Assembly: GCA_013377005.1 (NCBI GenBank)
Contig: JACABE010000004.1
Coordinates: 62,001-126,000 of the forward strand
DNA length: 64,000 bases
Direction of reading: 5' to 3'
Source of the DNA: Bacteroidota bacterium
Lineage (GTDB): Bacteria; Bacteroidota; Bacteroidia; Bacteroidales; JACABE01
This document shows, piece after piece, positions 12,701 through 59,816 of this stretch. Position 1 is the first letter of the stretch, and each line of letters starts with the position of its first letter. The notes below the pieces were generated by a model, which was not told where the DNA came from, ran no database searches, and was given only the letters and a program-made list of their open reading frames with translations. Made by a program: the position numbers and the translations under genes.

Positions 12701-15700
12701 CTGTACTTCCGGTAATTGCAGTAGCTTTAGTTGTAGTAACTGTTGGAGATGTAATATTTTCAATTCTAAATTCATCTATTCCATGATTAGTAAGATTATA
12801 TCCATAATTTGAGTAAGAAATAAATCTGAATTGTACATAGAGCCCTTGCCCTGCAAAAGCAGTTAAATCTATAGTATTTAATGTCCAAGGTGAAGTTGAT
12901 GAAGTTGCAAATGTAGAATTACCTGCTCTATGATTAAATAGTGTATCAGCTGGTAACCAAGTATTTCCAAAATCTCTACTTATTTGCAAAGCAAGAGGAA
13001 CTGGTAAATAACTATCATTACCTATCCAATAATAATATTTAAGTTGCTTAGGAGCACCATCTAATCTAAATACCGGAGAATACAAATAGTAAGGATTATA
13101 TGTTGTTGATGCATTATAACAATTTAAGTTAAAGAAATATGTACCAGCCTGTGGTGCAGCAGCACCATGAGCTGCATCAGCAGTAGTATAAGACCAATTA
13201 TATGAACTTCCAGTACCTGATGCAACTGACCAACAAGATATAGTAGCCGGTGAAACACTTTCTAAAAATGGATAAGTTGTTACAGGATCACATTTGGTTA
13301 ATACAGTAAGTGTACTTGAATAAACACTATAACATGAAGTATTATCATAAGCTCTCACTCTTACATAATAATAAGTACTAGGCAACAAACCTGTTAAAGC
13401 ATCTGTTAATACATCTGCTCCGATAGTTTTAGGATACCCACTTACAAAGCTTGTAAAAGCATTATCAGTAGCCACATCTAAAATATAACTCACACCTGCA
13501 CCGGATGTAGTCCATGATACATTAAAACCAACATTGGTAATAACAGAAGCTGTTAGAGTTCCGGGAACGGTAACTGCGGCAGCACAAGTAGTAACATTGT
13601 ATGATAAAGGAGAAGTGGCATTATACACAGGACCATAGCATCCGCTATTGTTATAACTATAAACATAATAAGTATATGTTTTACCAGCTGTAAGTCCGGT
13701 TTGTATAAATGAAGTTGCATTACTGATAGATACAATAGTACCGAGTGCTGCATTCGTACTTCCAACAGTGTAAGTTGTATAATTAACCGGTGCAATAATA
13801 TTGATACTATCCACAGGATAACGAACTATTAAATAGTTACTTGGAGCAGAAACTGCAGCAGTAAATGAAGCATTTACTCCAGTTGAAGTAGTATATTGAG
13901 TTGAAAAATTAGTAGGTTGATTAGCTGGAGCTGTACAAGGCGTTAAATTTCCATAAGAAAAATAACCGGTATAAGCAGCTGCTAATATTTGCGAACCAGT
14001 TGTGGTAAGCGTTTTTATTGTACCTGTTGTAAATAATGAAGCAGGAACAATAGCACCATAAGCACCGGCAGCAGATGGAGCTTGTATAATCTGATTACCG
14101 CTGGCAATATCTACATCGCCTAATTGAATATATGAACCTGTAAAATTAGCAATACCTGAGGTAACCTTTGCTTCCCAACGTTCTGGAGAAAGGTAAGTAA
14201 CACCAGGACCACCGCTTCCGCTATTGGTAGCAAATGCTTCACCTGACATTACCACAGGATTGGTAACTACTGTAGGATCCATCCAGATAGGAAGATACAA
14301 AGCTCCTTTTCCAACAGGATATAAAGTTGTTGTAGTATAAGTTCCTGTAGCTGTACGAGCTGCAAAAGTACGTGCAAAAGGACCGCTAATATAAGCAGTA
14401 GCACCACCACCTGATAATGTACCGGCAGCCGTTGCTGTTCCTAAGGTAAGTATATTTGCAGTTGTGGTATTTACAATACCTGCAGTTAATGTAAGGGTTC
14501 CACTAACTGATAATGGAGTTCCCATTGTAACACCCGATGCGTTGGTATTATTTACAGTAAGAGAAGCTAAACTTGCAGTTGGAGCTAAATTTGTAAGCGT
14601 AGTTAATGTACAACCAGAACCTGTTCCTCCTGAAGTTGAAGCAGGTGTTGTTGGTAGTACAGAATAATTTGAATAACCACGAGCCATAACACTTGTAACA
14701 GCACCACTTGTAACTGCAGTTACAACAAATTGGGCTTGAGATGTATACGTACCACCTAATAATGTAAGTACATCACCTACAACATAACCAGTTCCTCCGA
14801 CTGAAATAGCAGCAGTAGGAAGTAAATTTCTGAAATTACCTGCACCGGAAATAGTTTGAGCATTAGTTGAAGCTGTGGCAGTTCCACTTGCAAAGTTTCC
14901 TAATGTTATAGTATTAGGATTCGTTAAAACGCCTCCACTATTTACAGTAATATTTCCTGCAATATAGTTAGCTGTTGAACTTGTTCGCAATTCACCACCA
15001 TTATTTATGGTAAGATTTCCTAAAATTCCAACATAAGAAGTAAAGTTAACAAATCTGTTTATACCCAATGGACCATTAACTACAACATTTCCTAAAATAA
15101 AATAACTTGAAGGCCAAAAATAAGTGTAAAATCCATTTGCACTACCTGGATCTGTAGAAACACCGTCGCCAAAAGCAAAAGTATGTCCTGTAGTACAATT
15201 AGTTGCTGGTGAAACACCCATATACAATGCATATTGTGCAGAAACATGAGGGTCAACAACAGTAAATGTACCACCAGTAAAGAAAACAGTAGTTGGAGAT
15301 CCAGATGAAAGTTGTACTAAATAAGTAGCAGCTGCTACAGAATTGGCTGCAACACCTGCAGCATTTCCATCTACATTAATATTACCACCTGATTGGGTAA
15401 ATATGTTATTGGTAGAAGATGAATTGTAGAAGTTACCATTGATATTTAAGGTACCGGAAGCTACGGTTAAACTACCATAATTAGAAAAAGTTCTGTTTCC
15501 GCCGCCGGCAGGTCCTAAGGTTAAAGTACCGCCATTAATATTGATTAAACCACCGGCATAATTATAAACACCTGTAGTAGAAGCTCCGATAACAGTAAGA
15601 GTACCGGCTGATGCTGTTAAAACACCACCACTGTTAACAGCAACGGTATAAGCACTTTGAGCATCAGTAACGGTAATTGTATGTGTATTTAATATAACAA

Positions 15701-18700
15701 CTACATCGGTAGGGCCTGGTACAAGACCACCAACCCAACTTGAAGGTAGATTCCAATTTCCGGTTTGTGCAGAATAAATAACATTAGACATATTTGAATC
15801 TGCAGCACCTACATAAAAAGAACCACTTGAAAGATTAGCAAGTTTTAAGAGTGTTCTGTTAACCCAAGGATCAGTGTTTGTATTTGTTCCGGCAGAATGT
15901 CTTCCTGCGATAGAGGCTGATTGAACTAAATGCAAATAAGTATAATTATTTGTAGCAATTACACCAGTTGCCTGAGCTCTCATGATAATAGTTCCTGTAT
16001 CGGCAATGCCAGCACCAGGAGTTAATGTCCATGAAGAATTTGTACGACGATTTATAATATAATTTGGTACAGTATCAGCTATTGATAAACCAGTAGTTAA
16101 TCCTGCCGCATGTGCAACAGCACAAGTAATAGTTCCTCCTGCGGTTAATGCTGTAGCTGAAGAAAATGCAAGTTTAACCTCACGATTCGTTGCAACTCCA
16201 CCTACACTAACTGCCATTGGATAATATCCAATACCTGTTCCTACAGATGTTGGTAAACCAGTAATTGGGAACCAACGAGTAAACGTACCACCGGTTGTTA
16301 CAATTAAGCCTGATGAATATGACAATGTTCCAGGAACCGCAACACTTGTACCAAGTGTAAGATTATTAGTTCCAATAGTAAAATTACCGCTTGTCATAGT
16401 CAAGGTTGTACTTACTGCTAAAGTTTTGTCAAGTGTTATACCACTTGTATTATTTATAGTTAAAGCACTAATTCCTGTGGAAGGAAGTTCACTCCCTGTT
16501 GAATAGGCTGCAGCAGGGGTTGGAGCATTATAAACCCATGTATTGGTTTGTCCTGTACCCAAATTAAAACTTACAGGGCAAGTTACAGATCCACTGGATC
16601 TGGTCATTGTAAATCCCAACTGTAAACCTAAAGTAAGTGGATTTGAACCACTTAAAACTCCAGATGTAAGTATTAAAGCAGTCTTAACAACTGCATCTGC
16701 TGCATTCAACGTTATTCCGCTAGGATTATTTATCGTTAAACTACTGATTAATGCAGAAGGAGGAAGTTCATTCCCTGTTGAATAAGCTGCTGCAGGGGTA
16801 GGTGCATTATAAACCCAAGCATTAGTTGGTCCTGAAGCTAAATTACAACTTACAGGGCAAGTTACAGATCCACTGGTTCTGGTCATAGTAAATGGCAAAG
16901 TTGTTCCTCCATTACCCAAAGTAAGTGTATTTGAACCACTTAAAACACCCGATGTAAGTGTTAAAGCGCCTGTAACAATTAAGTTTGAAGCCAATGTTAT
17001 ACCACCCGGATTATTAATTAATAATGTTCCAGAAATTGAAGGAGGTAATCCTAAACCTGTTGTTTGTGCGGAAGTGCCGTTGTACGTGTAATTAACAGCT
17101 CCTGATCCGAATGCGAATATAGGAGCATTTGGAAGGCTACCTTCTGTTCTGATTACATTAAAACCTGCTGTACCACCAGCCCCGAAAGTAAGTGAAGTAG
17201 CTACCAAGCTACCTGCTGTTAAATTCAGATTTGGAGATATAGAAGCATCTTTAAAACCTAGTCCATTTGGAAGAGTAACACTACCTCCGGCAAAAGTATT
17301 ATTAATGGTTAAAGTAGTGGGTAATTGACTATTAGTAATGGTTCCATTATTAGTAAATGTTTGATTACCAACAGAACTGGAAAAAGTAAGTGACTGTGTT
17401 GAACCTGCATTTAATGTAAAAGTCCCATTGTTAACAATATTTCCAGGATAAGATGCATTCATACCTTTCATGTTCAGGTTATATTGTGTACTTAAAGAGA
17501 AAACACCTGTTCCGTTCATGGTAAAATCACCATAAACAGTTGTATGTCCAAAAAGTGTCAACCCATGATTGGCTGAAGCATTATCAACAATTAAATTGGG
17601 TGTTGCACCAGCAATTTTAAATGTTTTTGCTGTTCCAGATGAGCTATTTCCAATTTTTAAAGTTCCACCTGTAATATTTATAACAGATGCTAAATTGTAA
17701 TAATCATATTGAGTACCACCAGTACTTACTCCCTGAATGATAATGTTACCACCGCTCATGTTAAAAACACTACTTGTAGATGTTATCCCGAAACTTGCAT
17801 TAGAAGAAGAAGCATTTCCACTTATATTAACAGTTACATTCCCTGCACTTTGTGTATAAGTACATGCACTTGTAAGATTTAATCTACCTGCTACATTTAC
17901 AATACCACCTTCTATAAGCACAACAGCACCGGCTCCGTTACCCAATGAATTTCCTGTTCCTGTACCAACATTATAAGTTCCACTACTAATTCTCAATAAA
18001 CCGGTTACAGTTGGAGAACCTGCAGTACCCAAAGCAGTAAAATTAGCATTATTCAACCACAAACCACCCAAGGCTGGAATTGTATATGCTGCGGTAGTAA
18101 AAAGAGGATTAGATTGGGTATAACTTCCGCTAATTTTTAAAACACCGGCAGTATGTGTACCGATTAAACCAACGGTATTTGCTCCCTGTACAGTAAAAGG
18201 AACCTGAATATCCAAAATTGGAGGTGTAACTAATGTTGTTGCTGTTACAGCTCCTTTGTTCAGAGTTATTGAACTAAAATTTGTAGTACCTGTTCCTGAA
18301 ACAGAGGTGTTAGAACTTCCATAAAATGCTACAGTTGCTTTTCCATTAGTAGCACCTATCCACATATTAAAGATACCATTATTAAGAAGATTACCTATAC
18401 TTCCAGCAGCAGCAACATTACCACCAATATATAAAGTATGAGTAAGAGAAGCACCACCGGTAGCACCAGCGTCAAAAATTCCGCCTGCTTCAACAGTTAC
18501 ACTTCCATTTACATTAAGAGTAGCCGCAGTAGTTCCAAATCTTAATATGCTACCTGCTGCTACAGTTAAATTATAACATACAGGTGTTGCTAAGTCAATA
18601 GTATCTATGGCACCACTCACAATAGTTACATTATCAGTAGCAGTAGGTACAACACCACCTACCCATGTGGTAGTAGCACTCCATTTACCACCGGTAGCAG

Positions 18701-19592
18701 TAGAAACAATATTTCCCGGAGGATTGGTTGCCTGGCTACCTGTTAAATAAGGAGATTCAGCTTCATAAACGGCAACTATCCTATAATAATAAGTTATACC
18801 CGCTAATAAACCAGTTTGATTCTGAGTATAAAGAGTACCTGTAGTAGCCGTAGAAGTTGAGGTAATATCAGAACCTTGTTGTGTAAAATTAATATTATCA
18901 GAAGAGCGATACACTCTGAATGCAATTTCATTCGTTGAGTTATCATTCCAGCCAATGGTCATTCCTGTTTGAGTAACCGAAGTTGAAGTAAATGCATTAG
19001 GAGCAGCATCTGCAGGAGCAGGTATATAAACCCTAATTTCATCAATACCAATATCTGTAGTTCCATAATCACTTGTAGCAGTGAATTTAATCTTGGTAGT
19101 AGCTGAATTACCTGGTAGGGTAATTGATTTCAAAGTCCATGAGGCAGATGTTCCAATAGGAGATGGTGCAAGTGCAGACGACCAAGTAGCACCATTATCA
19201 TTAGATACATAAACATTTAACGCATCAGTTCCTGATGTATTAATATGATAAAAACTAAGCTTTACAGTTCCTGCTGTATAGGCAGAAAGATTAATTGTTG
19301 GTGAAATTAAATCACCCGTAGTTGCACTAGCAGCATCATAAGTATGAAACCTTGCTGCAGCTGTAGTTGAATTAGCACCTAAAGGTGAAAATGCACCAGA
19401 GCTACTAGTCCATCCGGTTGTGTAACTGGATTTTTGCCACACATCATCGGCAGGAGTTGTCGTGCCACTCCACGCAGGAGATAACGATGATGCATTAGTC
19501 CATGTACCTTCAAAGTTCTGGGTAAAAATTGTTTGTCCCCAACCAACGATACTGAAGACCATCGCGATTAATAAAAATAATAATTTTTTCAT
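6759..19592 (-). CDS. Giant T9SS-exported multidomain adhesin-like protein (4277 aa)
   Basis: Very large surface or secreted protein. It starts with a signal peptide (MKKLLFLLIAMVFSIVGWGQ). Next come a jelly-roll/MAM-like domain (about 25-190), an FN3 domain (about 200-290), and a long glycine/threonine/asparagine-rich region of beta-solenoid-like repeats (about 300-1800). Further FN3 domains and a second MAM-like domain follow (about 1850-2260), then repeats around ARGVCWSTN..YHLRAYATN (about 2280-2540), Ig-like modules and a GEVED-type domain (FGVYIDYNHNGVFTDPGEAV, near 3000). It ends with a T9SS type-A sorting domain (YNTLGQLIKTV..YSEKVLIK). A 93-residue unit is tandemly duplicated at 16498-16893. 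The protein is intact, with no frameshift. Adhesion or gliding/biofilm roles are inferred from architecture only. Confidence 0.9.
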   Translation of the reverse strand: MKKLLFLLIAMVFSIVGWGQTIFTQNFEGTWTNASSLSPAWSGTTTPADDVWQKSSYTTGWTSSSGAFSPLGANSTTAAARFHTYDAASATTGDLISPTINLSAYTAGTVKLSFYHINTSGTDALNVYVSNDNGATWSSALAPSPIGTSASWTLKSITLPGNSATTKIKFTATSDYGTTDIGIDEIRVYIPAPADAAPNAFTSTSVTQTGMTIGWNDNSTNEIAFRVYRSSDNINFTQQGSDITSTSTATTGTLYTQNQTGLLAGITYYYRIVAVYEAESPYLTGSQATNPPGNIVSTATGGKWSATTTWVGGVVPTATDNVTIVSGAIDTIDLATPVCYNLTVAAGSILRFGTTAATLNVNGSVTVEAGGIFDAGATGGASLTHTLYIGGNVAAAGSIGNLLNNGIFNMWIGATNGKATVAFYGSSNTSVSGTGTTNFSSITLNKGAVTATTLVTPPILDIQVPFTVQGANTVGLIGTHTAGVLKISGSYTQSNPLFTTAAYTIPALGGLWLNNANFTALGTAGSPTVTGLLRISSGTYNVGTGTGNSLGNGAGAVVLIEGGIVNVAGRLNLTSACTYTQSAGNVTVNISGNASSSNASFGITSTSSVFNMSGGNIIIQGVSTGGTQYDYYNLASVINITGGTLKIGNSSSGTAKTFKIAGATPNLIVDNASANHGLTLFGHTTVYGDFTMNGTGVFSLSTQYNLNMKGMNASYPGNIVNNGTFTLNAGSTQSLTFSSSVGNQTFTNNGTITNSQLPTTLTINNTFAGGSVTLPNGLGFKDASISPNLNLTAGSLVATSLTFGAGGTAGFNVIRTEGSLPNAPIFAFGSGAVNYTYNGTSAQTTGLGLPPSISGTLLINNPGGITLASNLIVTGALTLTSGVLSGSNTLTLGNGGTTLPFTMTRTSGSVTCPVSCNLASGPTNAWVYNAPTPAAAYSTGNELPPSALISSLTINNPSGITLNAADAVVKTALILTSGVLSGSNPLTLGLQLGFTMTRSSGSVTCPVSFNLGTGQTNTWVYNAPTPAAAYSTGSELPSTGISALTINNTSGITLDKTLAVSTTLTMTSGNFTIGTNNLTLGTSVAVPGTLSYSSGLIVTTGGTFTRWFPITGLPTSVGTGIGYYPMAVSVGGVATNREVKLAFSSATALTAGGTITCAVAHAAGLTTGLSIADTVPNYIINRRTNSSWTLTPGAGIADTGTIIMRAQATGVIATNNYTYLHLVQSASIAGRHSAGTNTNTDPWVNRTLLKLANLSSGSFYVGAADSNMSNVIYSAQTGNWNLPSSWVGGLVPGPTDVVVILNTHTITVTDAQSAYTVAVNSGGVLTASAGTLTVIGASTTGVYNYAGGLININGGTLTLGPAGGGNRTFSNYGSLTVASGTLNINGNFYNSSSTNNIFTQSGGNINVDGNAAGVAANSVAAATYLVQLSSGSPTTVFFTGGTFTVVDPHVSAQYALYMGVSPATNCTTGHTFAFGDGVSTDPGSANGFYTYFWPSSYFILGNVVVNGPLGINRFVNFTSYVGILGNLTINNGGELRTSSTANYIAGNITVNSGGVLTNPNTITLGNFASGTATASTNAQTISGAGNFRNLLPTAAISVGGTGYVVGDVLTLLGGTYTSQAQFVVTAVTSGAVTSVMARGYSNYSVLPTTPASTSGGTGSGCTLTTLTNLAPTASLASLTVNNTNASGVTMGTPLSVSGTLTLTAGIVNTTTANILTLGTATAAGTLSGGGATAYISGPFARTFAARTATGTYTTTTLYPVGKGALYLPIWMDPTVVTNPVVMSGEAFATNSGSGGPGVTYLSPERWEAKVTSGIANFTGSYIQLGDVDIASGNQIIQAPSAAGAYGAIVPASLFTTGTIKTLTTTGSQILAAAYTGYFSYGNLTPCTAPANQPTNFSTQYTTSTGVNASFTAAVSAPSNYLIVRYPVDSINIIAPVNYTTYTVGSTNAALGTIVSISNATSFIQTGLTAGKTYTYYVYSYNNSGCYGPVYNATSPLSYNVTTCAAAVTVPGTLTASVITNVGFNVSWTTSGAGVSYILDVATDNAFTSFVSGYPKTIGADVLTDALTGLLPSTYYYVRVRAYDNTSCYSVYSSTLTVLTKCDPVTTYPFLESVSPATISCWSVASGTGSSYNWSYTTADAAHGAAAPQAGTYFFNLNCYNASTTYNPYYLYSPVFRLDGAPKQLKYYYWIGNDSYLPVPLALQISRDFGNTWLPADTLFNHRAGNSTFATSSTSPWTLNTIDLTAFAGQGLYVQFRFISYSNYGYNLTNHGIDEFRIENITSPTVTTTKATAITGSTATSGGVVTDNGGAVVTARGVCWSTNAAPSLLDAYTTDGGGNGAFVSSLTSLAPDQWYHLRAYATNAMGTSYGGDSIFKTLNVFAPGVTMDFLANITNISATANGTVDNDGGSGPILMNGFVISTTVANPLITTPGVVVDTVVTPGVGGYSVGITGLTAGTLYYINAFAKNSVGTSYGTATSFTTIGLTTTAASAITPFTAISGGNIISDGGNLITARGVCYGTASTPDISGTHTTDGTGMGSFVSNLTLPTAATLYHIRAYATNSLGTFYGNDLTFTTLCDPGILSLSSTSVTRCGTGTATLSATTTGTGISWYDSAIDGSKLGSGVSFTTPIINATTIYYAESNTTSVGGTAPFGTASTLTSSTSYPTLYGNYWYQDWSQMVYTASELANAGLAAGNITALTFKLGAVADASPSGYTIKMGTTASSSLSGFTTTGLTNVYGPVTPTMTTGFNVFTLSTPYYWDGVSNIIIDIRGNGGYGDANATTYYTATTDNTVVYAYSYSDNSGFFTSSPAATTSKSRLNVIFSGTALCRGTRVADTVFVTPPSALTLTGTDTVCNTQINVNIQNEPLIVAKHVTSTIGDYAFYVWSPVDSLYLDATATTPYTGASATTVYFKSTKAGNYTYTCNASNVGAYSCANVATTKVTVRSAPGITVTTSLNPICDGNSTTISAITNAAVYTTPSVLYPTSYEDLGNITFGSLNNTTTVNSLVGTIGDAVGTAGSYSDFTAFGPYNYTAGNTYQMTLSSITASAYNYSNAFGVYIDYNHNGVFTDPGEAVYLSAATVSGNHTDTTNITIPLTAYNGNTRMRVISKEGLVTSSSQIFSYGEYEEYTINITGGADLYSYAWSDGQFSLGTSSSITVAPSGTTIYFMTLTESDGCSKMFPTPITVSQGAVITSQPIASSVCAGNDATFTVNATGVGLTYQWRKNGVSIADNASALTASLVLPAVTNADVDNYDVVINAICGTPATSTVAHLTVKPRPGSVPSSNSPVCSGFTLNLTGGTTYGTSFSWTGPNSFTSTSQDPIINSVLSSASGTYRLIATLNGCSDTATTTVVVNETPSSVTISPSSASIPYGSVQSLTANGGAVSGVQIFSENFDGASSSFVLGSKSGTNNITAVQNTTYYSEGISSYLLSTSTISDTAWYEMSNAINMTSYTSSILSFNHICAMEAGFDYCAVQYSTDNGATWITFPTSSYAGAGTLKLGAVCFDKSSYSDWGTQFTSSASTPGTPPATSLWKTETINIPNDALTPDFKIRFRIRTDGSVFYYGWLIDNVKITGTGTATMAWAPTSGLYTDAAATIPYTGSYATTVYANPSSNTTYTATATSLIGGCTNSGSVNVVLTCPAPVLVPASNVIGATTAKLYWTSPSTNFGIEVQPLSTAFTGVPNHIVTGNSTDPHYFNISGLSGATAYHYQIIGDCGSIAGNWSLPGTFTTDALPVPGLWTGLSVTSNNWSDVTNWSDHLEPIAGVNVVIPATAPRSPHVNTTAECNDLTIALGSSLTLTIDAGKYLTVNGTLTNNADESHFVIKSTGSGTGSLIHHNSGVLATVERNIHNEVADEFYMLGSPVAAQVIENHFNETDGFYGWNEVTGEWVGFGTPDFMALNPTGTFTPGLGYAVSYPTLTYPGDTVKTFTGSLNDGSHTIALSKTVGSLYEGWNFVSNPYPSAIDWDNNYDNSDPNGLMRTALEDVGYGNYSMWMWNADAGSYGNYISNGGGATNGLTSMIPSAHGFWIQLFNEAGEFTMNDGARLHNAQPFWKSSTSTSEQIRLKVTGTANTYRDEMLVRFGNASDLKGGEKMFSMYATAPSLYSTKLNKNWGINYLTTIAQHSVVPVSFKAGANGNYTIHASELNSFATTTYVYLKDLFTNTITDLNQTADYTFAASTTDNANRFQLLFALSPLSISDNVIENTSIYSNNSSIYVNSNETIKQIAIYNTLGQLIKTVANTNGKAIVNMKENAVGYYVVRVITNKNVYSEKVLIK
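16498..16893 (-). repeat. 279-bp in-frame tandem duplication inside the giant adhesin gene
   Basis: Segments beginning at 16498 and 16777 are highly similar over more than 100 bp and are 279 bp (93 codons) apart. Both encode TNxWVYNAPTPAAAYSTG followed by a short beta-repeat. This suggests a fairly recent in-frame duplication. Confidence 0.7.
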
Positions 19593-48710: not shown

Positions 48711-49790
48711 ATGTCAAAAATAGCACTTATCACAGGTATTACCGGACAAGATGGTTCCTACTTAGCTGAATTTTTACTAGAAAAAGGGTACGAAGTTCAT
48801 GGAATAATGCGCCGTGCATCAACGTTTAATACCAATAGAATCGAGCATCTTTATTTCGATGAATGGATTAAAGATACTAAACAAAAACGTAGTATTAATC
48901 TACATTATGGTGATATGACTGATAGTAGTTCTTTGATTCGTATTATACAAGCTGTAAAACCAGACGAAATATACAATCTTGCTGCTCAAAGCCATGTTCA
49001 AGTTTCATTTGAAGTACCAGAATATACAGCAGAAGCAGATGCTGTAGGTACTTTGCGAATATTAGAAGCCGTTCGTATATTAGATTTAGAGAAGAAATGC
49101 AAAATATATCAGGCATCTACCTCAGAATTGTATGGTAAAGTACAGGAAGTTCCTCAAAAGGAAACGACTCCTTTTTATCCTCGATCGCCTTATGGGGTTG
49201 CTAAACAGTATGGATTTTGGATTACAAAAAATTATCGTGAATCCTATAATATGTTTGCAGTAAATGGAATTCTATTTAACCATGAAAGCGAACGTCGTGG
49301 CGAAACCTTTGTTACTCGAAAAATTACCTTAGCAGCAAGTCGTATTGCTCATGGTTTACAAAAAAAATTATACATGGGCAACTTGGATGCTTTACGAGAT
49401 TGGGGTTATGCCAAAGATTATGTTCAATGTATGTGGATGATGTTGCAACATTCTAAACCGGAAGATTTTGTAATTGCAACAGGAGAAATGCATACAGTAC
49501 GTGAATTTATTGAGTTGGCTTTTAAGGAAGCAGAAATAGAAATTACATGGCAAGGAAGTGGTATAAATGAAAAAGGAATAAATAAACTTACCGGAGATGT
49601 ATTGGTAGAAGTTGATGCTAAATACTTTCGACCTGCTGAAGTAGAACAACTTTGTGGAGATCCTACAAAAGCAAAAACTTTGCTTGGATGGAATCCTACA
49701 CAGACCAGTTTTAAAGAATTGGTAAAATTGATGATGAAACATGATTTGGTATATGTGAAAAAGTTGCATGAATCGAAAGTGGAATTATAA
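48711..49790 (+). CDS. gmd: GDP-mannose 4,6-dehydratase
   Basis: Converts GDP-D-mannose to GDP-4-keto-6-deoxy-D-mannose, first step to GDP-L-fucose. The NADP motif is [17 protein letters not shown], followed by [14 protein letters not shown], characteristic of Gmd. Catalytic serine/threonine, Tyr and Lys lie in [10 protein letters not shown] and [26 protein letters not shown] is the substrate-binding signature. Length (359 aa) is normal. The fucose synthase gene follows 45 bp downstream. Confidence 0.97.
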
Positions 49791-49835
49791 TTAAAAGAAC
49801 TAATATTACAAACATTATTTTCAAATAAAGAAAAT

Positions 49836-50930
49836 ATGGATAAAAATAGCAAAATATATATTGCTGGTCATAAAGGCTTAGTAGGTTCTGCACTATGGAA
49901 CAACCTATTAATAAAAGGATATACCAATTTAATTGGTCGATCTATCGAAGAACTTGATTTAATGAATCAGTCAGCTGTTGCAGATTTTTTTCAGGCAGAA
50001 AAGCCTGAATATGTTATTCTGGCAGCAGCAAAAGTAGGCGGAATCGTAGCTAATAATACCTATAGAGGACAATTTATATATGAGAATCTGCAAATCCAAA
50101 ACAATGTGATTCATCAGGCGTATCTGAACAATGTAAAAAAACTTCTTTTTCTGGGTTCAACATGCATTTACCCAAGAGATGCACAACAACCTATGTCTGA
50201 AGATTGTTTATTAACAAATATTCTGGAATATACCAATGAACCCTATGCAATTGCTAAGATTGCCGGATTAAAAATGTGTGAAAGTTATAATCTTCAATAC
50301 GGAACTAACTTTATTGCAGTAATGCCAACCAATCTTTATGGCCCTAATGATAACTTTGATTTGGAGAAAAGTCATGTTTTACCGGCAATGATTCGAAAAA
50401 TTTATCTTGGAAAATGTATTGAAGATGAAAACTGGCATGCAATACAAAATGATCTCAACAAACGTCCTATTGAAGGCATCACAGGTAAAAATAATAAAGA
50501 GGAAATTATAAGTAAGCTTTCAAAATACGGCATTTCATATTCACAGCAAGCCAATGTTGAAATTTGGGGAACCGGAGCTCCTTTGCGTGAATTTTTGTGG
50601 AGCGAAGAGATGGCAGATGCTTGTATTTACATCATGGAAAATGTAGATTTTAAAGATTTAAAAGAAAAATCAGCAGATAATCAATCAAATGAAATTCGCA
50701 ATAAACACATCAACATTGGTACCGGAGAAGAAATTACTATTAAAAATCTGGCTTTTCTGATTAAAGAAATTATTGGTTATACTGGAAATTTAGAATTTAA
50801 CACCTCTAAACCTGACGGAACCATGCGAAAACTAACAAATCCTTCTAAACTACACAATTTAGGATGGCATCATAAAATTGAAATCGAAGAAGGTATCAAG
50901 AAATTATTTAATTGGTATATTGACAACTAG
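49836..50930 (+). CDS. fcl: GDP-L-fucose synthase
   Basis: Bifunctional 3,5-epimerase and 4-reductase making GDP-L-fucose. The NADP motif is IAGHKGLVGSALW, with LAAAKVGGI, FLGSTCIYPRDAQQP and the catalytic YAIAKIAGLKM. Substrate residues follow in PTNLYGPNDNFD. At 364 residues it is longer than E. coli Fcl because of an insertion around residues 200-235 (PIEGITGKNNKEE..), which I have seen in Bacteroidota homologues. With gmd it gives the locus a third deoxy sugar. Confidence 0.96.
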   Translation: MDKNSKIYIAGHKGLVGSALWNNLLIKGYTNLIGRSIEELDLMNQSAVADFFQAEKPEYVILAAAKVGGIVANNTYRGQFIYENLQIQNNVIHQAYLNNVKKLLFLGSTCIYPRDAQQPMSEDCLLTNILEYTNEPYAIAKIAGLKMCESYNLQYGTNFIAVMPTNLYGPNDNFDLEKSHVLPAMIRKIYLGKCIEDENWHAIQNDLNKRPIEGITGKNNKEEIISKLSKYGISYSQQANVEIWGTGAPLREFLWSEEMADACIYIMENVDFKDLKEKSADNQSNEIRNKHINIGTGEEITIKNLAFLIKEIIGYTGNLEFNTSKPDGTMRKLTNPSKLHNLGWHHKIEIEEGIKKLFNWYIDN

Positions 50931-51822: not shown

Positions 51823-53280
51823 ATGTTAGAAAGTGTTGTAAATCAAATTTTTTCTAAAGCACTGCTTTTCCCGAATAAAAAGGCACTCATTGAAGAAAAT
51901 AAAGCTATATCTTATTCAGAATTAGCTTCAAAAATTTTAGCAACAAAATTTGCTTTGGAAAACGATCTTAACATAAAAAAAGGGGATCGGGTGATAATTT
52001 CTGCAAATAAACAAATCGGGTTTGTATATGCTTATTTTGGAGCACATTTAGCAGGTGTAATAGTAGTTCCTGTTGATTTTGATACAAATCAAACACGATT
52101 ACAATATATAATTCTGAAAATAAAGCCAGCATTAATGATAGGTTTTGAAAACCCAATTTCGAACATAATGAATATTCCAATTGATTATTTTGATAATTTA
52201 AAAGGAAGCTCTGAAATAAACAAAGAGTTTCCTCAGATAGATGAAATTGCTGATATAGTTTTTACTACAGGCACAACAGGAGATCCTAAAGGTGTAATAT
52301 TAAAACACCGGAATATAGCTGCATCTGCAAATAACATCAATATATTTATACAAAACACATCAGAAGATGTCGAATTACTTGCTTTACCTGTTTCTCATTC
52401 CTTCGGATTAGGAAGAATAAGATGCGTTCTTTCAAAGGGAGCTACACTTATTTTATTGGGAAGCTTTACAAATGTAAAAAAAATATTCAGGATTATTGAA
52501 ACACATGGTGTAACCGGCTTCGCAATGGTACCTTCAAGTTGGGCATATATTAAAAAGATGAGCGGAACAAAAATTGGTAAATTTTCTCATTTGATTAAAT
52601 ATATCGAGATTGGCAGTGCTCCTATGCCTATGGAAGACAAACATCTGCTAATAAAATTATTTCCTCTGACCAGAATTTGTATGCATTATGGATTAACTGA
52701 GGCATCCCGGTCATCTTTTATAGAATTTAACAGTCAAAAAGATAAACTTGAAACAGTTGGAAAATCAACTCCAAATGTGTTAATTACAATAAAAGACGAA
52801 AACGGAACAGATTTACCTATTGGTGTTGAAGGAGAAATTTGTGTAAAAGGAGATTCTGTTACAAGTGGTTACTGGAATGATACAAAAACAACTACAGATT
52901 CTTTTTGGAGTGATTCTTTTCGTACCGGAGATTGGGGCGTTTTTGATGAATCTGGATATCTTTCTTTAAAAAGCAGGAAAAAAGAAATAATTAATGTTGG
53001 CGGTAAAAAAGTCAGTCCAATTGAGGTTGAGGTTGTATTAGTAACATATCCCGGAATAAAAGAATGTGCATGTATCGGAATAGAAGATCCGAATCAGCTA
53101 TTGGGTGAAGTTATTAAAGCTTTTATAGTATTAGATGATGGAATTAATCTAAATTTTAATGATGTTAAGAAATATGTCGGCGAGCATCTTGAGGCATATA
53201 AAATTCCTGTTGTTTTTGAAACAATCCCTGAAATACCTAAAACTTCATCAGGTAAAATTCAACGTTTGATTTTAAAATAA
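51823..53280 (+). CDS. AMP-forming acyl-CoA/acyl-ACP synthetase
   Basis: ANL-superfamily adenylating ligase of 485 residues. Signature motifs are complete: the phosphate-binding loop IVFTTGTTGDPKGV, MHYGLTEASRSS, the FRTGDWG segment and GKKVSPIEVE. The closing PKTSSGKIQR contains the adenylation lysine. It would activate a fatty or other carboxylic acid as acyl-AMP and load it on the adjacent ACP or on CoA. There are no condensation or NRPS domains attached. Its partners (ACP before; alcohol dehydrogenase and acyl reductase after) suggest supply of a substrate to be reduced. Confidence 0.9.
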   Translation: MLESVVNQIFSKALLFPNKKALIEENKAISYSELASKILATKFALENDLNIKKGDRVIISANKQIGFVYAYFGAHLAGVIVVPVDFDTNQTRLQYIILKIKPALMIGFENPISNIMNIPIDYFDNLKGSSEINKEFPQIDEIADIVFTTGTTGDPKGVILKHRNIAASANNINIFIQNTSEDVELLALPVSHSFGLGRIRCVLSKGATLILLGSFTNVKKIFRIIETHGVTGFAMVPSSWAYIKKMSGTKIGKFSHLIKYIEIGSAPMPMEDKHLLIKLFPLTRICMHYGLTEASRSSFIEFNSQKDKLETVGKSTPNVLITIKDENGTDLPIGVEGEICVKGDSVTSGYWNDTKTTTDSFWSDSFRTGDWGVFDESGYLSLKSRKKEIINVGGKKVSPIEVEVVLVTYPGIKECACIGIEDPNQLLGEVIKAFIVLDDGINLNFNDVKKYVGEHLEAYKIPVVFETIPEIPKTSSGKIQRLILK

Positions 53281-53287
53281 TAAATAT

Positions 53288-54421
53288 ATGTGGGAACCAC
53301 AAGGGCTTTATAGTAAATTTCTATTAAAACAGCCAACTTTATTGTTTGGTGAAAATTCGATCAGAGGTTTAAGAAATTTTCCTTGTTCAAAAGTTGCTGT
53401 AATACACGGCAAAGGTTTAACTGAAGAATCAAAAAGTGTTTTTATTTCAACTTTTGGCGTATTTGACTTGCTGTTCATAAATAAGACCTGGAAAAATGAA
53501 CCAATTTTAGAAGAGCTACATACTACTATTCAAATACTTGAAGATTTTAAACCTGATCTCATTATTGCTGTGGGTGGAGGTGCCGTAATTGATGGGAGTA
53601 AAATGGCTCGTTTATATTATGAATTCCCTTTTTTTAATGTTATAAATCCAAAATTTACATATTTAGAATGGAGTACTAAATTCATTGCAATTCCAACTAC
53701 TGTGGGAAGTGGCTCTGAAATATCTTCAGCTATTGTTTTATTTAATACTGTAAAAAAAACAAAAGAGATGATTGTAAACCATTCTCTTTTACCCGATGTT
53801 GTTATTCTTGATCCTTTATTTATCAAAGGTTCATCAGAGAAAATAATACTCTCTTCTTCTGTTGATGCTTTATCACATATTATTGAAGGTTATGTATCAA
53901 AAGTAGAAAACACATTTTCTGATGTTTATGCTGAAAAATCCTGTCAAATTATTTATGAAACATTTTCTTCATTAGCATTTAATTTAAATACTACAGATAT
54001 TAATCGTTTGCAATTTGCAGGATACTTGGGTGGCATTGTGCAAAATCACTGCATAGTTGGCAGTACGCATGCAATTGCGCATCAATTAACCAGTTTTGGT
54101 TTTTCTCATTCCATAGCTATCTCTTTACTTTTAACTTCAGTAATAAAATCAAATGCAATTAACTTAGAAACTAAATTAAGATACGATTTGCTTGCTAAGA
54201 GATGTGGTATTCAAGATGGTATTGATGGATTAATTGATTTTATTGATCATTTAATTATTAAAATGGATATTGAAGAAGAGAAAAACAGATTAAGATATTT
54301 AATCCCCTCTTTAATTTCTGATCAGACTTTTATTGAAAATGTACAAAAAGACAAAGGAGGATTTGGTAACCCTATAACAATAACGGAAGATTATATTATA
54401 AATATTTTAAATATGATTTAA
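53288..54421 (+). CDS. Iron-containing alcohol dehydrogenase family protein
   Basis: Group III (Fe-type) alcohol dehydrogenase fold, 377 residues. The nucleotide loop is IIAVGGGAVIDGSKMA, and the family block IPTTVGSGSEISSAIV follows. The metal ligands appear complete: Asp and His in VDALSHIIEGY, and two histidines in GSTHAIAHQL. It would interconvert an aldehyde and an alcohol with NAD(P)H. It overlaps the LuxE-LuxC gene by 1 bp, so it probably reduces the aldehyde released by that enzyme. KdnB-type sugar oxidases belong to the same family, so a sugar substrate is an alternative. Confidence 0.86.
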   Translation: MWEPQGLYSKFLLKQPTLLFGENSIRGLRNFPCSKVAVIHGKGLTEESKSVFISTFGVFDLLFINKTWKNEPILEELHTTIQILEDFKPDLIIAVGGGAVIDGSKMARLYYEFPFFNVINPKFTYLEWSTKFIAIPTTVGSGSEISSAIVLFNTVKKTKEMIVNHSLLPDVVILDPLFIKGSSEKIILSSSVDALSHIIEGYVSKVENTFSDVYAEKSCQIIYETFSSLAFNLNTTDINRLQFAGYLGGIVQNHCIVGSTHAIAHQLTSFGFSHSIAISLLLTSVIKSNAINLETKLRYDLLAKRCGIQDGIDGLIDFIDHLIIKMDIEEEKNRLRYLIPSLISDQTFIENVQKDKGGFGNPITITEDYIINILNMI

Positions 54422-56907
54422 TGATGGAAGATTCATTAGTAGAAGTATTAATAAATAAACCACCCTATAATTTTTCTAAACAGGAGAAAGATATTGATTT
54501 TTATAATGCTTTACTGGAAGAGTTAAATTTTCATTATACGAATAATAAATTATTCAAACATTTTTGTGATAATAAGAATTTTAATCCACAAAACTTTGTT
54601 GGGAATTTATCGGAAATTCCATATATTTCAGTAAATGTATTTAAAGAATTAGGAGAAGATTTGATTTCTGTCCCAAACGAAGATATTAAATTTAATTTAC
54701 AGTCATCTGCTACTTCAGGCATACCAAGCACTATCCTTGTAGATAAAATCACATCTAAAAGGCAGTCAAAAGTAATGATTAAAGTGGTTCAAGAGTTTAT
54801 TGGAAAAGATCGTAAACCTTTTCTGGTTATGGATATAAATCCTCAAAGCGAGTATCGTAATTTATTGGGAGCAAGGTATGCAGCAATAAGTGGATATTTA
54901 AATTTCGCCAATGAAATTAGCTATTTTTTAAAGGTTGATGAAAAAAATAAGTATTTTTTTGATATAAAAGGTATCCGTGAATATATAAGCAAACTAACAG
55001 CTTCTCAGCCAGCTATTATTTTTGGATTTACATATATTTTGTTTTCTGAAGTGATAAGACCATATCTTGAAAAAGGTGAAATGTTTCAGTTACCTGTAGG
55101 ATCAAAAATAATTCATATTGGGGGATGGAAAAAATTAGAAAACGAAAAAGTTACTAAAGAAGAGTTTAACAAAAATGCATCTGTCCTTTTTGGGATAAAT
55201 CCTGATGACGTAATTGATATATATGGGTTCACAGAACAAATGGGATTAAATTATCCTGACTGTCTTTGTGGTTTTAAACATGCTTCTTTATATTCAGAAG
55301 TTATTATTCGTGATACAGTTACTAAAGAAGTATTGCCTGAAGGAAATGAAGGAATGTTGGAATTTTTGTCACCTATCCCTCATTCATATCCCGGTAACGT
55401 CGTTCTTACAGATGATATTGGAATCATAGATAAAAATCCATGCCCCTATGGTAAACAGGGAACTCGTTTTAAGATTATAGGAAGATTGAAAAAAGCAGAA
55501 ATCAGAGGGTGTGGAGACATTTTATCAAGTAAATTGAAATTTTTAGATTCTAAAATAATTAGTATTAATGATGAAGTACAATTATTCAAAGTAGAGTTTT
55601 GGAAAGGTGAAGATGTATCAAACTTAAAATCAAATGAAGAGCAATTAACAAGTATAATTGATCAATTAAATCAATCTGTGAAATGGCTTAGGAGTCAACC
55701 TATTGATGCTTTAATTGGCTTGATTGGGAAAATTGCATTAAAATGGATGGACTTTGAAAAGTCAGAAAACGAAATTTTAAAAGACAAAGGTTTATCATTT
55801 TTATCCGCTTGGTGTAGCCCTGAACATCTGGTTCGAATTTCAACAATTGGGTTAAGAGGAAACCGAAAATATATGAATTCTTTTCTTCCAATGGAAGATT
55901 CTACAATTCAGTATATGAAAGCTACTTCCCGTGGTCTTGTTTGTCACTGGTTGGCAGGGAATGTACAAGTTTTGGGAATGTTTGCTTTAGTGCAATCAAT
56001 TTTAACTAAAAATGTGAATCTTTTGAAAATATCTTCAAAAGATGATGGTATATTTTCATTAATGTTAAGTGCTTTCGAAAATGTATCCTTTACAACGAAA
56101 GGTGGGTATACAATAAAAGCAGATGATTTGCTAAAAACAATCGGAGTTATATATTATGATCATAATGAGTCCAAATTAGGAGAAATTATGTCTAAGGCTG
56201 CAAAAGCAAGAATTGCCTGGGGTGGACGAGATGCAGTACAAACAGTATCAACTTATCCAGCAGCTTATGATTGTGAAGATCTTATTTTAGGTCCAAAACT
56301 TTCATTTTCTGTTATTGCTAAAGAAAAACTGGAAGATGAACGGAAAGTAAAAAAATTAGCACGCAAAATTGCCGTTGATGCAAGTGTTTTTGACCAGACA
56401 GGATGTGCATCACCCCACAATTTATTTATTGAGCGAGGTGGTAATATTTCTCCAAAAGAATTTTCAGTATTACTTGCCGAAGGAATGAAAAAAACAACTT
56501 TACAAATCCCCAAAGGGAGTATTTCGCCTGAACAGATTTCTGCAATTCACTCTATACGAAGCTTATATGATTTCAAAGGTATTGCATGGACAAGCACAGA
56601 TTCAACATGGACTGTATTGTACAGTGAAGATATGAATTTAAATCAACCTGTATATTCACGTGTACTATTTGTACATCCAGTTAATCATATTGATGAAACG
56701 CTTATCTTTATAAATGATAACATTCAAACAATAGGATTGGCAGCTACAGGTAAAAAGGCTATTTCATACGCAGATAAAGCAACAGCCAAAGGAGCAATGC
56801 GTTTACCAGATTTAGGAAAAATGCTTAATTTTGAGTCTCCATGGGATGGTTTATTTATTATGGATAGACTCGTTCGTTGGAATACAATGGGTGGACCTCT
56901 TGTTTAA
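54421..56907 (+). CDS. LuxE-LuxC fusion: acyl-protein synthetase/acyl reductase
   Basis: Two enzymes of the bioluminescence fatty-acid reductase complex fused in one 828-residue chain. Residues ~1-385 resemble LuxE/PaaK-type acyl-protein synthetase: NFVGNLSEIPYISVNVFKEL, the loop QSSATSGIPSTI, and DIYGFTEQMGLNYPDC. Residues ~440-828 resemble LuxC acyl reductase: LVCHWLAGNVQVLGMFALVQ, RIAWGGRDAVQTVS and the likely acyl-enzyme Cys662 in FDQTGCASPHNLF. Together they would activate an acyl chain, move it to the cysteine and reduce it to an aldehyde with NADPH. No luciferase (luxAB) is present. Reading is continuous, without frameshift. Two-gene versions are common; the fusion is less so. Confidence 0.87.
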   Translation: MMEDSLVEVLINKPPYNFSKQEKDIDFYNALLEELNFHYTNNKLFKHFCDNKNFNPQNFVGNLSEIPYISVNVFKELGEDLISVPNEDIKFNLQSSATSGIPSTILVDKITSKRQSKVMIKVVQEFIGKDRKPFLVMDINPQSEYRNLLGARYAAISGYLNFANEISYFLKVDEKNKYFFDIKGIREYISKLTASQPAIIFGFTYILFSEVIRPYLEKGEMFQLPVGSKIIHIGGWKKLENEKVTKEEFNKNASVLFGINPDDVIDIYGFTEQMGLNYPDCLCGFKHASLYSEVIIRDTVTKEVLPEGNEGMLEFLSPIPHSYPGNVVLTDDIGIIDKNPCPYGKQGTRFKIIGRLKKAEIRGCGDILSSKLKFLDSKIISINDEVQLFKVEFWKGEDVSNLKSNEEQLTSIIDQLNQSVKWLRSQPIDALIGLIGKIALKWMDFEKSENEILKDKGLSFLSAWCSPEHLVRISTIGLRGNRKYMNSFLPMEDSTIQYMKATSRGLVCHWLAGNVQVLGMFALVQSILTKNVNLLKISSKDDGIFSLMLSAFENVSFTTKGGYTIKADDLLKTIGVIYYDHNESKLGEIMSKAAKARIAWGGRDAVQTVSTYPAAYDCEDLILGPKLSFSVIAKEKLEDERKVKKLARKIAVDASVFDQTGCASPHNLFIERGGNISPKEFSVLLAEGMKKTTLQIPKGSISPEQISAIHSIRSLYDFKGIAWTSTDSTWTVLYSEDMNLNQPVYSRVLFVHPVNHIDETLIFINDNIQTIGLAATGKKAISYADKATAKGAMRLPDLGKMLNFESPWDGLFIMDRLVRWNTMGGPLV

Positions 56908-56984
56908 GCTTTTAGATGTATATTGTCAAAAAAAACGTTTGTAACTATTAAATTTCAAAATTATATTGAATATTGATTAAATGT

Positions 56985-57953
56985 ATGAATATTGAAATTA
57001 AAAGAACAACCGAATTAAATTCAAATGAATGGGAGATATATACCAGTTCATTCAATCAGGTTTTTAATAAAATATTTACTATTGATGATTTTAAACAAAA
57101 ATATCTTACTACTATTGATGGTTTATCATACCATTCTCTATTAATGCAGGATGAACTTATTGTTGGCGGTTGCACCGTAATTCCTTTCGAATATTTTATT
57201 AAAAATACAATAGTTCGTGTTGGATTAGCTGTGGACGTTTTTATTTTAGATACCTATCGTTCACACCCTATGATTTTATATCAAATGTATAATAAGTTGA
57301 AAAAGTCACTTACTCCCAATAAGATTGAAATCGTTATTGCAGTTCCAAATGACACTGCATTTTCATATTGGAAAAATATAATAAAATGGAAAGAGGTGGG
57401 CCTTTTAAATTATAATGTACTACCTGTAAAGTTAGGGAATGTAATATCTAAACTTCCTGCAATATTAAATATATTTTCATTTTTTGGCTACCAAATTTTG
57501 TTATGTTGTTCGTATTTGTTTCATTCCACTGAAAGAATATCTGATATCAGAATAAATCGTACAAACAGAATTATTGAAAAGCAAAGGTACACTGCAGAGC
57601 ATAAAAAAATCATACTTCAAGATGCATTTTTTGGGTACAGAATTGTTAATGAAGAAGGAATAATTGCTTGCTATTTAATTGATTTCTATAACACTAAAAA
57701 ATTAATTAGAGACTCTTATTCGCTTAACAAAGCAATCAGATACATCTGTTCAAATGAAAAAGTAGATTTGATTATCTTTATTGGGAAACTTACTTTTTCC
57801 CAAATTCTTTTAATTAAAGTCCCTTTCAAATCAGAACCGAGACATTTGCATTTCATGATTGATATTATAATCGATGATAATATTAAAGATATCGATTTTG
57901 TTTACAATATTAATAATTGGGATTTTGGTCTATTTAATTATGATGTAAGATAA
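56985..57953 (+). CDS. GNAT-like N-acyltransferase
   Basis: A 322-residue cytoplasmic protein. The N-terminal half has the GNAT pattern: GGCTVIPFEYF, then VRVGLAVDVFILDTYRSHPMILYQMY, which resembles the acyl-CoA-binding strand and loop. The C-terminal half is a degenerate second domain. I take the ATG at 56985; the frame can be extended to a TTG. GNAT or FemAB-like proteins are frequent companions of exosortase/PEP-CTERM loci. It could acylate an amino sugar or a lipid precursor. The assignment is from fold pattern only. Confidence 0.6.
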   Translation: MNIEIKRTTELNSNEWEIYTSSFNQVFNKIFTIDDFKQKYLTTIDGLSYHSLLMQDELIVGGCTVIPFEYFIKNTIVRVGLAVDVFILDTYRSHPMILYQMYNKLKKSLTPNKIEIVIAVPNDTAFSYWKNIIKWKEVGLLNYNVLPVKLGNVISKLPAILNIFSFFGYQILLCCSYLFHSTERISDIRINRTNRIIEKQRYTAEHKKIILQDAFFGYRIVNEEGIIACYLIDFYNTKKLIRDSYSLNKAIRYICSNEKVDLIIFIGKLTFSQILLIKVPFKSEPRHLHFMIDIIIDDNIKDIDFVYNINNWDFGLFNYDVR

Positions 57954-57983: not shown

Positions 57984-58832
57984 ATGAAAATATTAACTTT
58001 TGATATTGAAGAGTGGTTTCATCTACTCGACAATAATCTCGCCAATACAGAAACAAGTTGGGAAACTTATGAGGTACGTATTCATAAAAATATGGAGCGA
58101 ATCTATAAAATATTGGACGAAACAAATACTCAAGCAACATTTTTTTGCTTAGGTTGGATTGCTAAAAAATATCCTGAAATAATCAAACAGATTGACCAAT
58201 TAGGATATGAAATAGGATGTCATTCTGATCAACATCAATTAGTTTATGAACTATCCCCAGCTTTGTTTAAACGAGATACCGAAGTTGCAATTAACAGACT
58301 TGAAGATATTTTGGGGAAAAAAATTAAATCATATCGTGCTCCATGTTTTTCGTTTACATCAGAAACACCTTGGGCTTTTGAAGTATTAGCTAGCTTAGGA
58401 ATTACTCATGATAGTTCTATTTTCCCATCTGCAAGAATACAAGGTGGTTATGTAAATTTCCCATCAAAAATGCCTAGTATTTTAAATTGCAATGGAATCC
58501 ACATCAAAGAAATTCCTATTACTACAACAAAATTTTTAGGGCAAAATATTGTTTTTAGTGGTGGTGGCTACTTTCGGCTATTTCCTTATTCATTCATTCA
58601 TTATTGGACAAAAAAACAGGATTTCGTAATGGCATATATGCATCCACGTGATTTAGATGCCGATCAGCCTATGATTAATGAATTATCATTAAGTCGTAAA
58701 TTCAAATCATATTATGGACTAAATACAGCAGAAGCAAAATTTAAAAAATGGTTAACTGATTTTAAATTTACGGATATCAGAGAATTTGATAAAAACTTTG
58801 ATTGGAATAATGCAAAAATTATCAATTTATAA
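57984..58832 (+). CDS. Polysaccharide deacetylase, PEP-CTERM-locus-like subfamily
   Basis: NodB-fold metal-dependent deacetylase, 282 residues. The catalytic aspartates are in LTFDIEEWFH. The histidine-rich metal site is GCHSDQH, followed by SYRAPCFSF. The C-terminal half (FSGGGYFRLFPYSFIHYWTK..VMAYMHPRDLD) has the layout of the DUF3473-type extension of deacetylases associated with XrtA loci. It would remove N-acetyl groups from the glycan or from a precursor. No signal peptide is visible. Its place directly before the exosortase gene supports the exosortase-locus reading. Confidence 0.87.
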   Translation: MKILTFDIEEWFHLLDNNLANTETSWETYEVRIHKNMERIYKILDETNTQATFFCLGWIAKKYPEIIKQIDQLGYEIGCHSDQHQLVYELSPALFKRDTEVAINRLEDILGKKIKSYRAPCFSFTSETPWAFEVLASLGITHDSSIFPSARIQGGYVNFPSKMPSILNCNGIHIKEIPITTTKFLGQNIVFSGGGYFRLFPYSFIHYWTKKQDFVMAYMHPRDLDADQPMINELSLSRKFKSYYGLNTAEAKFKKWLTDFKFTDIREFDKNFDWNNAKIINL

Positions 58833-58990: not shown

Positions 58991-59641
58991 ATGCAAAAAA
59001 TACTTCAAGAGCTTAAAGCTAATTTTCGGAAACTTAATTTATTTCTTAACAATAATTACCTGCTGAAAACATTTGGTATCAGGTTACTAATTTTGATGGG
59101 TATTGGAGCTATCGTACTATTCATTTTAAGAAATAATCCTGAGCTAAAATATAAAGTACAACATGCTCAGTTTATATATGATTTTTACAGAATCATTATG
59201 TATTCAAGCTTATACTTTCTAAGAGCAATAGGTTTTGATGCTTATATTTATTATTCTGAAACTATGTACAAATATGGTGTGTATGCTATTGGAATAAATG
59301 GATCCGGATCTGTTTTTATGGGAATTTCTTGTATTGGAATTACTTTAATGGGAGGTTTTGTAGCATTAATGGTTTCGTTTCCCGGTAAACTAAAACATAA
59401 ATTGTGGTTTATCCCTTGTGGTCTTATCATTATTCAGCTATTAAATGTTCTACGAATGAGTACTCTTGCCGTTTTAATACATAAAGGATTTAAACATACA
59501 TTTAAAGATTATAACTTCTTAGGAATTTTAAAATTTAATCATCACGACCTTTTCAATTTTTTTATTTATATCGTTATTTTCGGGATGTTTGTCCTTTATA
59601 TAAATAAATTCGCTGTGAAGAAATATCAGGAAAAGGAATAA
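58991..59641 (+). CDS. Exosortase/archaeosortase-family protein
   Basis: Integral membrane protease/transpeptidase that cleaves C-terminal sorting signals such as PEP-CTERM at the inner membrane. The 216-residue protein has five or six hydrophobic segments. The three invariant residues can be placed: Cys114 in MGISCIGITLMGG, Arg155 in LLNVLRMSTLA and a histidine at His184-His185 in KFNHHDLFNFF. This is the Cys-Arg-His triad of the family. It is short, like the Bacteroidota exosortases, and lacks an EpsI domain. A strong terminator follows, so it closes the locus. A candidate substrate with a PID-CTERM-like tail lies at 6390-6599. I cannot assign a subclass. Confidence 0.88.
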   Translation: MQKILQELKANFRKLNLFLNNNYLLKTFGIRLLILMGIGAIVLFILRNNPELKYKVQHAQFIYDFYRIIMYSSLYFLRAIGFDAYIYYSETMYKYGVYAIGINGSGSVFMGISCIGITLMGGFVALMVSFPGKLKHKLWFIPCGLIIIQLLNVLRMSTLAVLIHKGFKHTFKDYNFLGILKFNHHDLFNFFIYIVIFGMFVLYINKFAVKKYQEKE

Positions 59642-59665
59642 AAAAGAAAATAAAAAATATTTATA

Positions 59666-59700
59666 AAAAAGGATTTGCATAAGTTATGCAAATCCTTTTT
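59666..59700 (+). terminator. Strong intrinsic terminator closing the polysaccharide/exosortase locus
   Basis: Perfect 16-bp inverted repeat AAAAAGGATTTGCATA (59666-59681) and TATGCAAATCCTTTTT (59685-59700) with a 3-nt loop, followed by TATTTT. It starts 25 bp after the exosortase stop. Confidence 0.85.
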
Positions 59701-59816
59701 TATTTTATATACCAAAGATAGTTATAAAAAAATGAAAGAGCTTTATGCGTTTAAGAACAAGAATATATACAAGCTTTGAAAAAAAGAACTAATTTTCAAT
59801 AAAATATGAAATTATA

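Follow-up and report, generated by a model that had tools for sequence, protein, structure and literature searches.

An XrtX-like exosortase of the Bacteroidales and the pairing of PID-CTERM microproteins with T9SS cargo genes

Exosortases are membrane enzymes believed to cleave surface proteins and anchor them anew. The DNA analyzed here (the window, 64,000 nucleotides of one contig of a Bacteroidales genome) contains a candidate exosortase gene at the end of a polysaccharide locus and, 52 kb away, a gene for a 69-aa protein that seemed to carry an exosortase-type sorting signal; the original prediction implied that the two form a pair. The locus thus raises the question of what this exosortase and its relatives act upon, and what the product could be used for.

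The candidate gene (58991-59641, plus strand) encodes a hydrophobic protein of 216 aa. Its proposed identity was borne out by profile search: an exosortase model, TIGR04178 (exo_archaeo), matches with 39.6 bits at a cut-off of 23, which places the protein in the superfamily, while a Pfam search gave no matches. Among the models of exosortase classes, XrtX (NF046081) scored best with 80.3 bits, followed by XrtY (NF046083, 62.7 bits), and lower scores were obtained with XrtF (TIGR04128, 35.5 bits) and XrtH (TIGR04177, 18.7 bits), all of them under the respective cut-offs of 170, 160, 90, and 86. XrtX was also the best-scoring exosortase model for eight of the ten relatives tested, and all tested exosortases of the order stayed under its cut-off. 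In an alignment of 17 members C114, R155, and H184 are invariant and H185 varies, so the predicted triad Cys114/Arg155/His184-185 is correct save for His185. As judged from profile scores and alignment, the gene is an XrtX-like exosortase of an unnamed branch, a new member of a known superfamily. An AlphaFold2 model built with two sequences as input was of low confidence (mean pLDDT 44), and no solved structures were found among the relatives. The closest relative (81% identity) comes from an uncultured Bacteroidales genome. The orthologue in G290, a genome of the same genus (L077, 166-750), lacks the C-terminal part after HHDLF; a contig end is nearby, and the gene may be either broken or cut by the assembly edge. 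G290 also encodes an XrtH protein (L076, 7751-8356; 93 bits at a cut-off of 86), and no XrtH over the cut-off was found in the window's genome.

The gene of the 69-aa protein (6390-6599) lies on the minus strand, which the original prediction had left unstated. The protein (MKKLVLTALIAICSIGLFA/QPLPPPYSHGETTDQPGAPIDGG/LSVLLIMGAAFGA/KKVCFLKKKSIEVE) consists of a signal peptide, a Pro/Gly-rich linker, the motif GAPIDGG, a hydrophobic stretch of about 14 residues, and a basic tail. With 34.2 bits it passes the cut-off of 26 of the PID_CTERM model (NF046080), in agreement with the sorting signal read from its sequence. As this protein passes PID_CTERM and the exosortase passes the superfamily model, both are of known kinds. 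An intrinsic-terminator-like hairpin with an 18-pair stem followed by a T-run (6326-6365, minus strand; one hairpin of this type found, 0.3 expected) is located directly downstream of the gene. Directly upstream, at a distance of 159 bases, is the gene for a surface protein of 4277 aa with fn3, Ig, GEVED, and MAM-like domains (6759-19592, minus strand). Its residues 4209-4277 (6762-6968, minus strand) form a T9SS type A sorting domain (TIGR04183, 26.1 bits at a cut-off of 23), which makes the protein a T9SS cargo.

A relationship between exosortases and PID-CTERM proteins, proposed in the original prediction to be visible as co-occurrence, proved strong in samples of 295 genomes of the order and 345 genomes of the phylum. 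In the order, an exosortase was found in 72 of the 78 genomes with PID-CTERM and in 53 of the 217 without it (p=4e-27, kinship uncorrected); in the phylum, the corresponding counts were 55 of 55 and 71 of 290 (p=7e-29, kinship uncorrected), and the pattern is seen over many families. The D of the PID motif is often replaced by G in relatives (APIGSG, APIGGG), and the motif variant tracks the exosortase tree, with six changes compared with a mean of 16.9 and a minimum of 11 in 2000 shuffles (relatedness uncontrolled).

The proteins that bear the PID-type tail are strikingly small. We examined 183 of them: a first set of 87 (53-106 aa, median 75), a held-out set of 44 from new sites (58-112 aa, median 78), and a phylum sample of 52 (40-172 aa, median 71), the protein of 172 aa being the longest of all. 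In the 131 microproteins of the order sample the hydrophobic stretch, measured from the motif to the first basic residue, has 14 residues (5-95% range: 14-15), Gly and Pro make up about half of the region preceding the motif, none of the linkers contains Cys, and the peptide predicted to remain after both cuts has a median length of 21 residues (cleavage sites were placed by a simple rule). PID-CTERM is thus nearly always borne by microproteins, and tiny proteins of about 75 residues are the likely substrates of the Bacteroidota exosortases considered here. One larger candidate was seen, an ORF of 973 aa in genome G460 (L285, 4115-7036) with a PID-like C-terminal tail, VPIDGEVWVLLAGGLALAVGQLRRTW (VPIDGE); as a large PID substrate it is a single weak case.

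The location of the microprotein genes follows two patterns. First, in the first set a gene that encodes a T9SS sorting domain is found directly upstream on the same strand in 49 cases out of 87, with such domains present in 21 of the 751 other genes of the same loci. The same arrangement was found for 35 of the 44 held-out genes and 31 of the 52 genes of the phylum sample, or 115 of 183 in all. Chance adjacency was ruled out by the base rate and the held-out set. Second, 18 of the 87 genes are directly upstream of an exosortase gene, and three occur in both arrangements; the earlier remark that the enzyme and substrate genes of such systems usually do not share an operon was therefore half right, as it fits the window and fails for these 18 genes. 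Complete cargo-microprotein-exosortase cassettes were found in six lineages (L011, L133, L102, L109, L062, and L288, the last one outside the order). In L109 and L062 a T9SS gene whose sorting domain belongs to the subclass described below stands beside an exosortase gene, with a gap in which no PID gene had been detected; this arrangement led to a small secreted protein in each gap, a microprotein missed by the tail model (L109, 6376-6630, motif GCPIDRTQ; L062, 877-1080, motif GAPVGSG). Such regular pairing of microprotein and cargo genes suggests that two systems of surface sorting are connected.

Dockerin-like EF-hand repeats such as DLNNDGVTDINDFSIFIGKFGQ often terminate the product of the gene directly upstream of the linked cargo gene (L013, 4611-5339; L144, 3139-3999; L158, 5487-5999; L078, 10182-13013; L175, 3-362). 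This suggests a third member of the cassette; most loci end before the position of that gene.

Since the pairing with T9SS genes is commoner than adjacency to exosortase genes, and cleavage by the exosortase is something that we infer, the microproteins could be seen not as exosortase substrates but as small membrane proteins of two helices that assist the secretion of T9SS cargo, their co-occurrence with exosortases reflecting inheritance within lineages. We regard this as very improbable: all 55 PID genomes of the phylum sample encode an exosortase, the microprotein genes directly adjoin exosortase genes in several lineages, the motif follows the exosortase tree, and the architecture is that of a tripartite CTERM signal.

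The T9SS sorting domains (CTDs) of the linked cargo have features of their own. In the order, their ends follow a pattern like GYYIVKVITDKGVVTQKVFIK, and a classifier distinguishes them from other CTDs with an AUC of 1.0 in seven-fold cross-validation (49 vs 43 CTDs, the unlinked ones being mostly from this genome). Because of this confounder, the CTDs were also ranked within the genome, using a profile whose 35 linked CTDs were all taken from other genomes (five of these CTDs come from the same family as the window's genome). The four microprotein-linked CTDs were 1st, 3rd, 5th, and 6th of 80 matches (61-71 bits); that of the 4277-aa protein scored 64.8 bits and is a member of the subclass. 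Two unlinked CTDs rank among the four linked ones, and the top six are followed by two intermediate matches and then by ordinary CTDs with at most 43 bits. The contrast between four linked CTDs out of six and none out of 130 (about 136 T9SS genes in total) corresponds to p=1e-6, with the threshold picked after the scores had been seen. A taxonomic artefact of the classifier was considered as the cause of the separation and rejected, as the ranking with the profile from other genomes still held. Among the linked CTDs of the held-out set, 34 of 35 belong to the subclass. Three of the seven high-scoring subclass CTDs of this genome (contigs C22, 12493-12708; C8, 2511-2723; and C2, 72489-72704; 53-67 bits) have no microprotein gene behind them. 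Outside the order, the linked CTDs are of the ordinary kind, which rules out the subclass as a general feature; the subclass is local to the order, and the pairing is more general and extends beyond it. The CTD profile can also serve to identify the T9SS proteins involved.

The exosortase gene itself was predicted to close a polysaccharide locus, and it is indeed the last gene of a polysaccharide/acyl-ligase cluster, followed by a bidirectional terminator-like hairpin with a 19-pair stem and a T-run (59663-59703; two hairpins of this type found, 0.2 expected). Glycosyltransferase and nucleotide-sugar genes, including those for GDP-mannose 4,6-dehydratase and a GDP-sugar epimerase (48711-50930, plus strand; syntenic with G290, 90% and 81%), precede a run of plus-strand genes that leads from the ligase to the exosortase. 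It comprises an AMP-forming acyl-CoA ligase (51823-53280), for which the exosortase A-associated TIGR03098 ranks second among the NCBIfam models (249.6 bits, under its cut-off of 592); an iron-type alcohol dehydrogenase (53288-54421); a LuxE-LuxC fusion (acyl-protein synthetase/acyl-CoA reductase, 54421-56907); a putative GNAT-type acyltransferase (56973-57953; a weak match to Pfam Acetyltransf_9, E=0.007, below the cut-off); and a polysaccharide deacetylase (PF01522 and DUF3473, 57984-58832) related to TIGR03006 of the XrtA system (237.8 bits, below the cut-off of 276.2). The joining of LuxE and LuxC in a single protein of 828 aa was noted within this locus. The exosortase locus is conserved in G290, and G100 has part of it. 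Homologs of the deacetylase and the GNAT-like gene are neighbours of the exosortase orthologue in L077 of G290 (74% and 53% identity) and of a related exosortase in L107 from another family (47% and 41%); the exosortase most similar to that of the window, in L045, sits outside any polysaccharide locus.

The XrtA-like deacetylase and the acyl ligase beside the exosortase, together with 15 loci in which a PID-exosortase pair has no T9SS gene alongside, would suit a classical role of the enzyme: the microproteins would be processed and attached to exopolysaccharide or lipid without involvement of T9SS, and the operon pairing would mean only that surface and matrix components are co-expressed. We consider this rather unlikely, as co-expression would require neither 115 of 183 microprotein genes immediately downstream of T9SS cargo genes nor a CTD subclass dedicated to them.

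Whether the exosortase of the window acts on the 69-aa protein is a separate question. Profile searches of the contigs of this genome (G000, 3.69 Mb in 92 contigs) revealed two exosortases, that of the window and one on contig C12 (309385-310349; L011, 9386-10350), which is 72% identical to it over the best BLAST match; the two group together. On C12, the gene of a T9SS cargo of 850 aa is followed after 33 bases by a PID gene for 74 aa and, after a further 95 bases, by the exosortase gene. The genome scan for other proteins with the same tail, suggested along with the original prediction, yielded four more PID-type genes, so that four genes of the genome pass the PID_CTERM cut-off and a fifth contains an in-frame TGA; one of the five has no neighbouring T9SS gene. 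The fifth (L014, 2663-2824; contig C16) lies behind a T9SS cargo gene, its TGA deletes the basic tail, and it is possibly a decaying copy. PorU is present in the genome, and none of its proteins reached the cut-off for PEP-CTERM (PF07589; best score 14.5 bits, cut-off 20.7).

Because another PID-CTERM gene is directly followed by the second exosortase, with its identity of 72%, the implied pairing of the window's enzyme with the 69-aa protein is unsupported and no more than a possibility; the C12 enzyme is an equally good or better candidate partner. The paralogue may even handle all PID microproteins, the 69-aa one included, the window's enzyme having taken another substrate tied to the polysaccharide locus. 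The gene order on C12 speaks for such a division, as does the window's enzyme, which has no nearby PID gene and whose locus is conserved in relatives; the similarity and common grouping of the two enzymes speak against it, and so does the failure to find another C-terminal signal of the PEP-CTERM type in the genome. We rate the division at somewhat less than an even chance, and it is compatible with the general part of the explanation favoured below. Processing of the 69-aa protein by the enzyme of the window rather than by the paralogue is, in our view, evenly balanced.

Taken as a whole, the data are best explained, with moderate confidence, by an XrtX-like exosortase that has PID microproteins as substrates and whose product is used in the display of T9SS cargo. 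Points against it are the three high-scoring subclass CTDs of this genome that lack a microprotein gene, its one PID gene away from any T9SS gene, the ordinary linked CTDs outside the order, the 15 PID-exosortase pairs without a T9SS neighbour, the position of the L045 exosortase, and the 973-aa candidate. The microprotein would be exported by Sec, lose its signal peptide, and be held in the inner membrane by the hydrophobic stretch of about 14 residues and the lysine tail. The exosortase (Cys114/Arg155/His184) would then cleave it at the PID-GG motif, which is the step that we hold to be highly probable; such a cut would leave only a Pro/Gly-rich peptide of about 20 residues. The new C-terminus is probably linked by the enzyme to an acceptor from the polysaccharide/acyl-ligase locus that ends in the exosortase gene, a transfer in which we have clearly less confidence than in the cleavage. 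Finally, the peptide, or a glycan or lipid bearing it, may be used to display at the surface the T9SS cargo whose gene immediately precedes that of the microprotein; for a direct role of this kind the chances appear about equal either way. Each cargo tends to be accompanied by its own microprotein copy, which suggests use in proportion to the cargo. A more specific and rather improbable version is that the exosortase turns the co-encoded microprotein into a peptide tag on a glycan or lipid, by which PorU or a partner anchors the cargo of the same operon; each such cargo would then be made with its own consumable anchor peptide. The operon-like pairing provides a concrete set of candidate exosortase substrates, whose small size suits direct mass spectrometry, and makes the proposed connection between exosortase and T9SS sorting open to test.

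Several known systems resemble the one described here. The PEP-CTERM/exosortase A (EpsH) system combines a tripartite C-terminal signal, a membrane enzyme with a C/R/H triad, and an exopolysaccharide locus with a deacetylase and an acyl ligase. The present system shares the signal, the triad, and a locus with a related deacetylase and acyl ligase, but its substrates are microproteins with almost no mature part and a hydrophobic stretch of 14 residues, and the genome has no PEP-CTERM protein over the cut-off. As for the PID_CTERM and XrtX models, the 69-aa protein passes the former and the tested exosortases of the order fall short of the latter; the T9SS pairing and the microprotein nature are computational findings of this analysis. 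The exosortase superfamily, the PID-CTERM domain, and the T9SS sorting domain are already known. In the open-access literature, no relevant work on PID-CTERM, XrtX, or PIDGG was found, nor, in those parts that we consulted, a description of a set of substrates that are all microproteins and of their pairing with T9SS cargo; these two features and the unnamed XrtX-like branch are thus apparently new.

In Porphyromonas, T9SS cargo is joined to an amino-acyl sugar, whose synthesis is assigned to the acyltransferase VimA and the putative deacetylase VimE (Veith 2020, PMC7468200). The sections of that article consulted note that VimA resembles an exosortase-associated family, speculate that exosortases may use such a compound, describe the exosortase acceptor as unidentified, and contain no description of exosortase substrates beside T9SS cargo genes. 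As in the PorU and Wbp/Vim linking-sugar system, the cargo here has T9SS CTDs and PorU is present; the deacetylase and acyltransferase pair of the window would fit the idea of an amino-acyl sugar used by exosortases, by analogy only. The Wbp/Vim pathway has a VimA-type acyltransferase beside a CE4 deacetylase; the window has a polysaccharide deacetylase, but its GNAT-like gene has no match to the VimA-related family TIGR03019 at E 0.1. Another Bacteroidota exosortase, XrtF, below whose cut-off the window's enzyme scores (35.5 vs 90 bits), has been studied in Flavobacterium johnsoniae, where its deletion is reported to impair surface colonization and biofilm formation, alongside T9SS genes, and its substrates are given as unknown (PMC10936215). 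The rhombosortase/GlyGly-CTERM system, as summarized in the T9SS article (PMC7468200), similarly connects a membrane signal at the C-terminus with secretion across the outer membrane, by T2SS. In that system the enzyme is a rhomboid, and the exported protein is the same one that bears the signal; in the present case an exosortase takes the place of the rhomboid, and the exosortase and T9SS signals reside on the products of two neighbouring genes.
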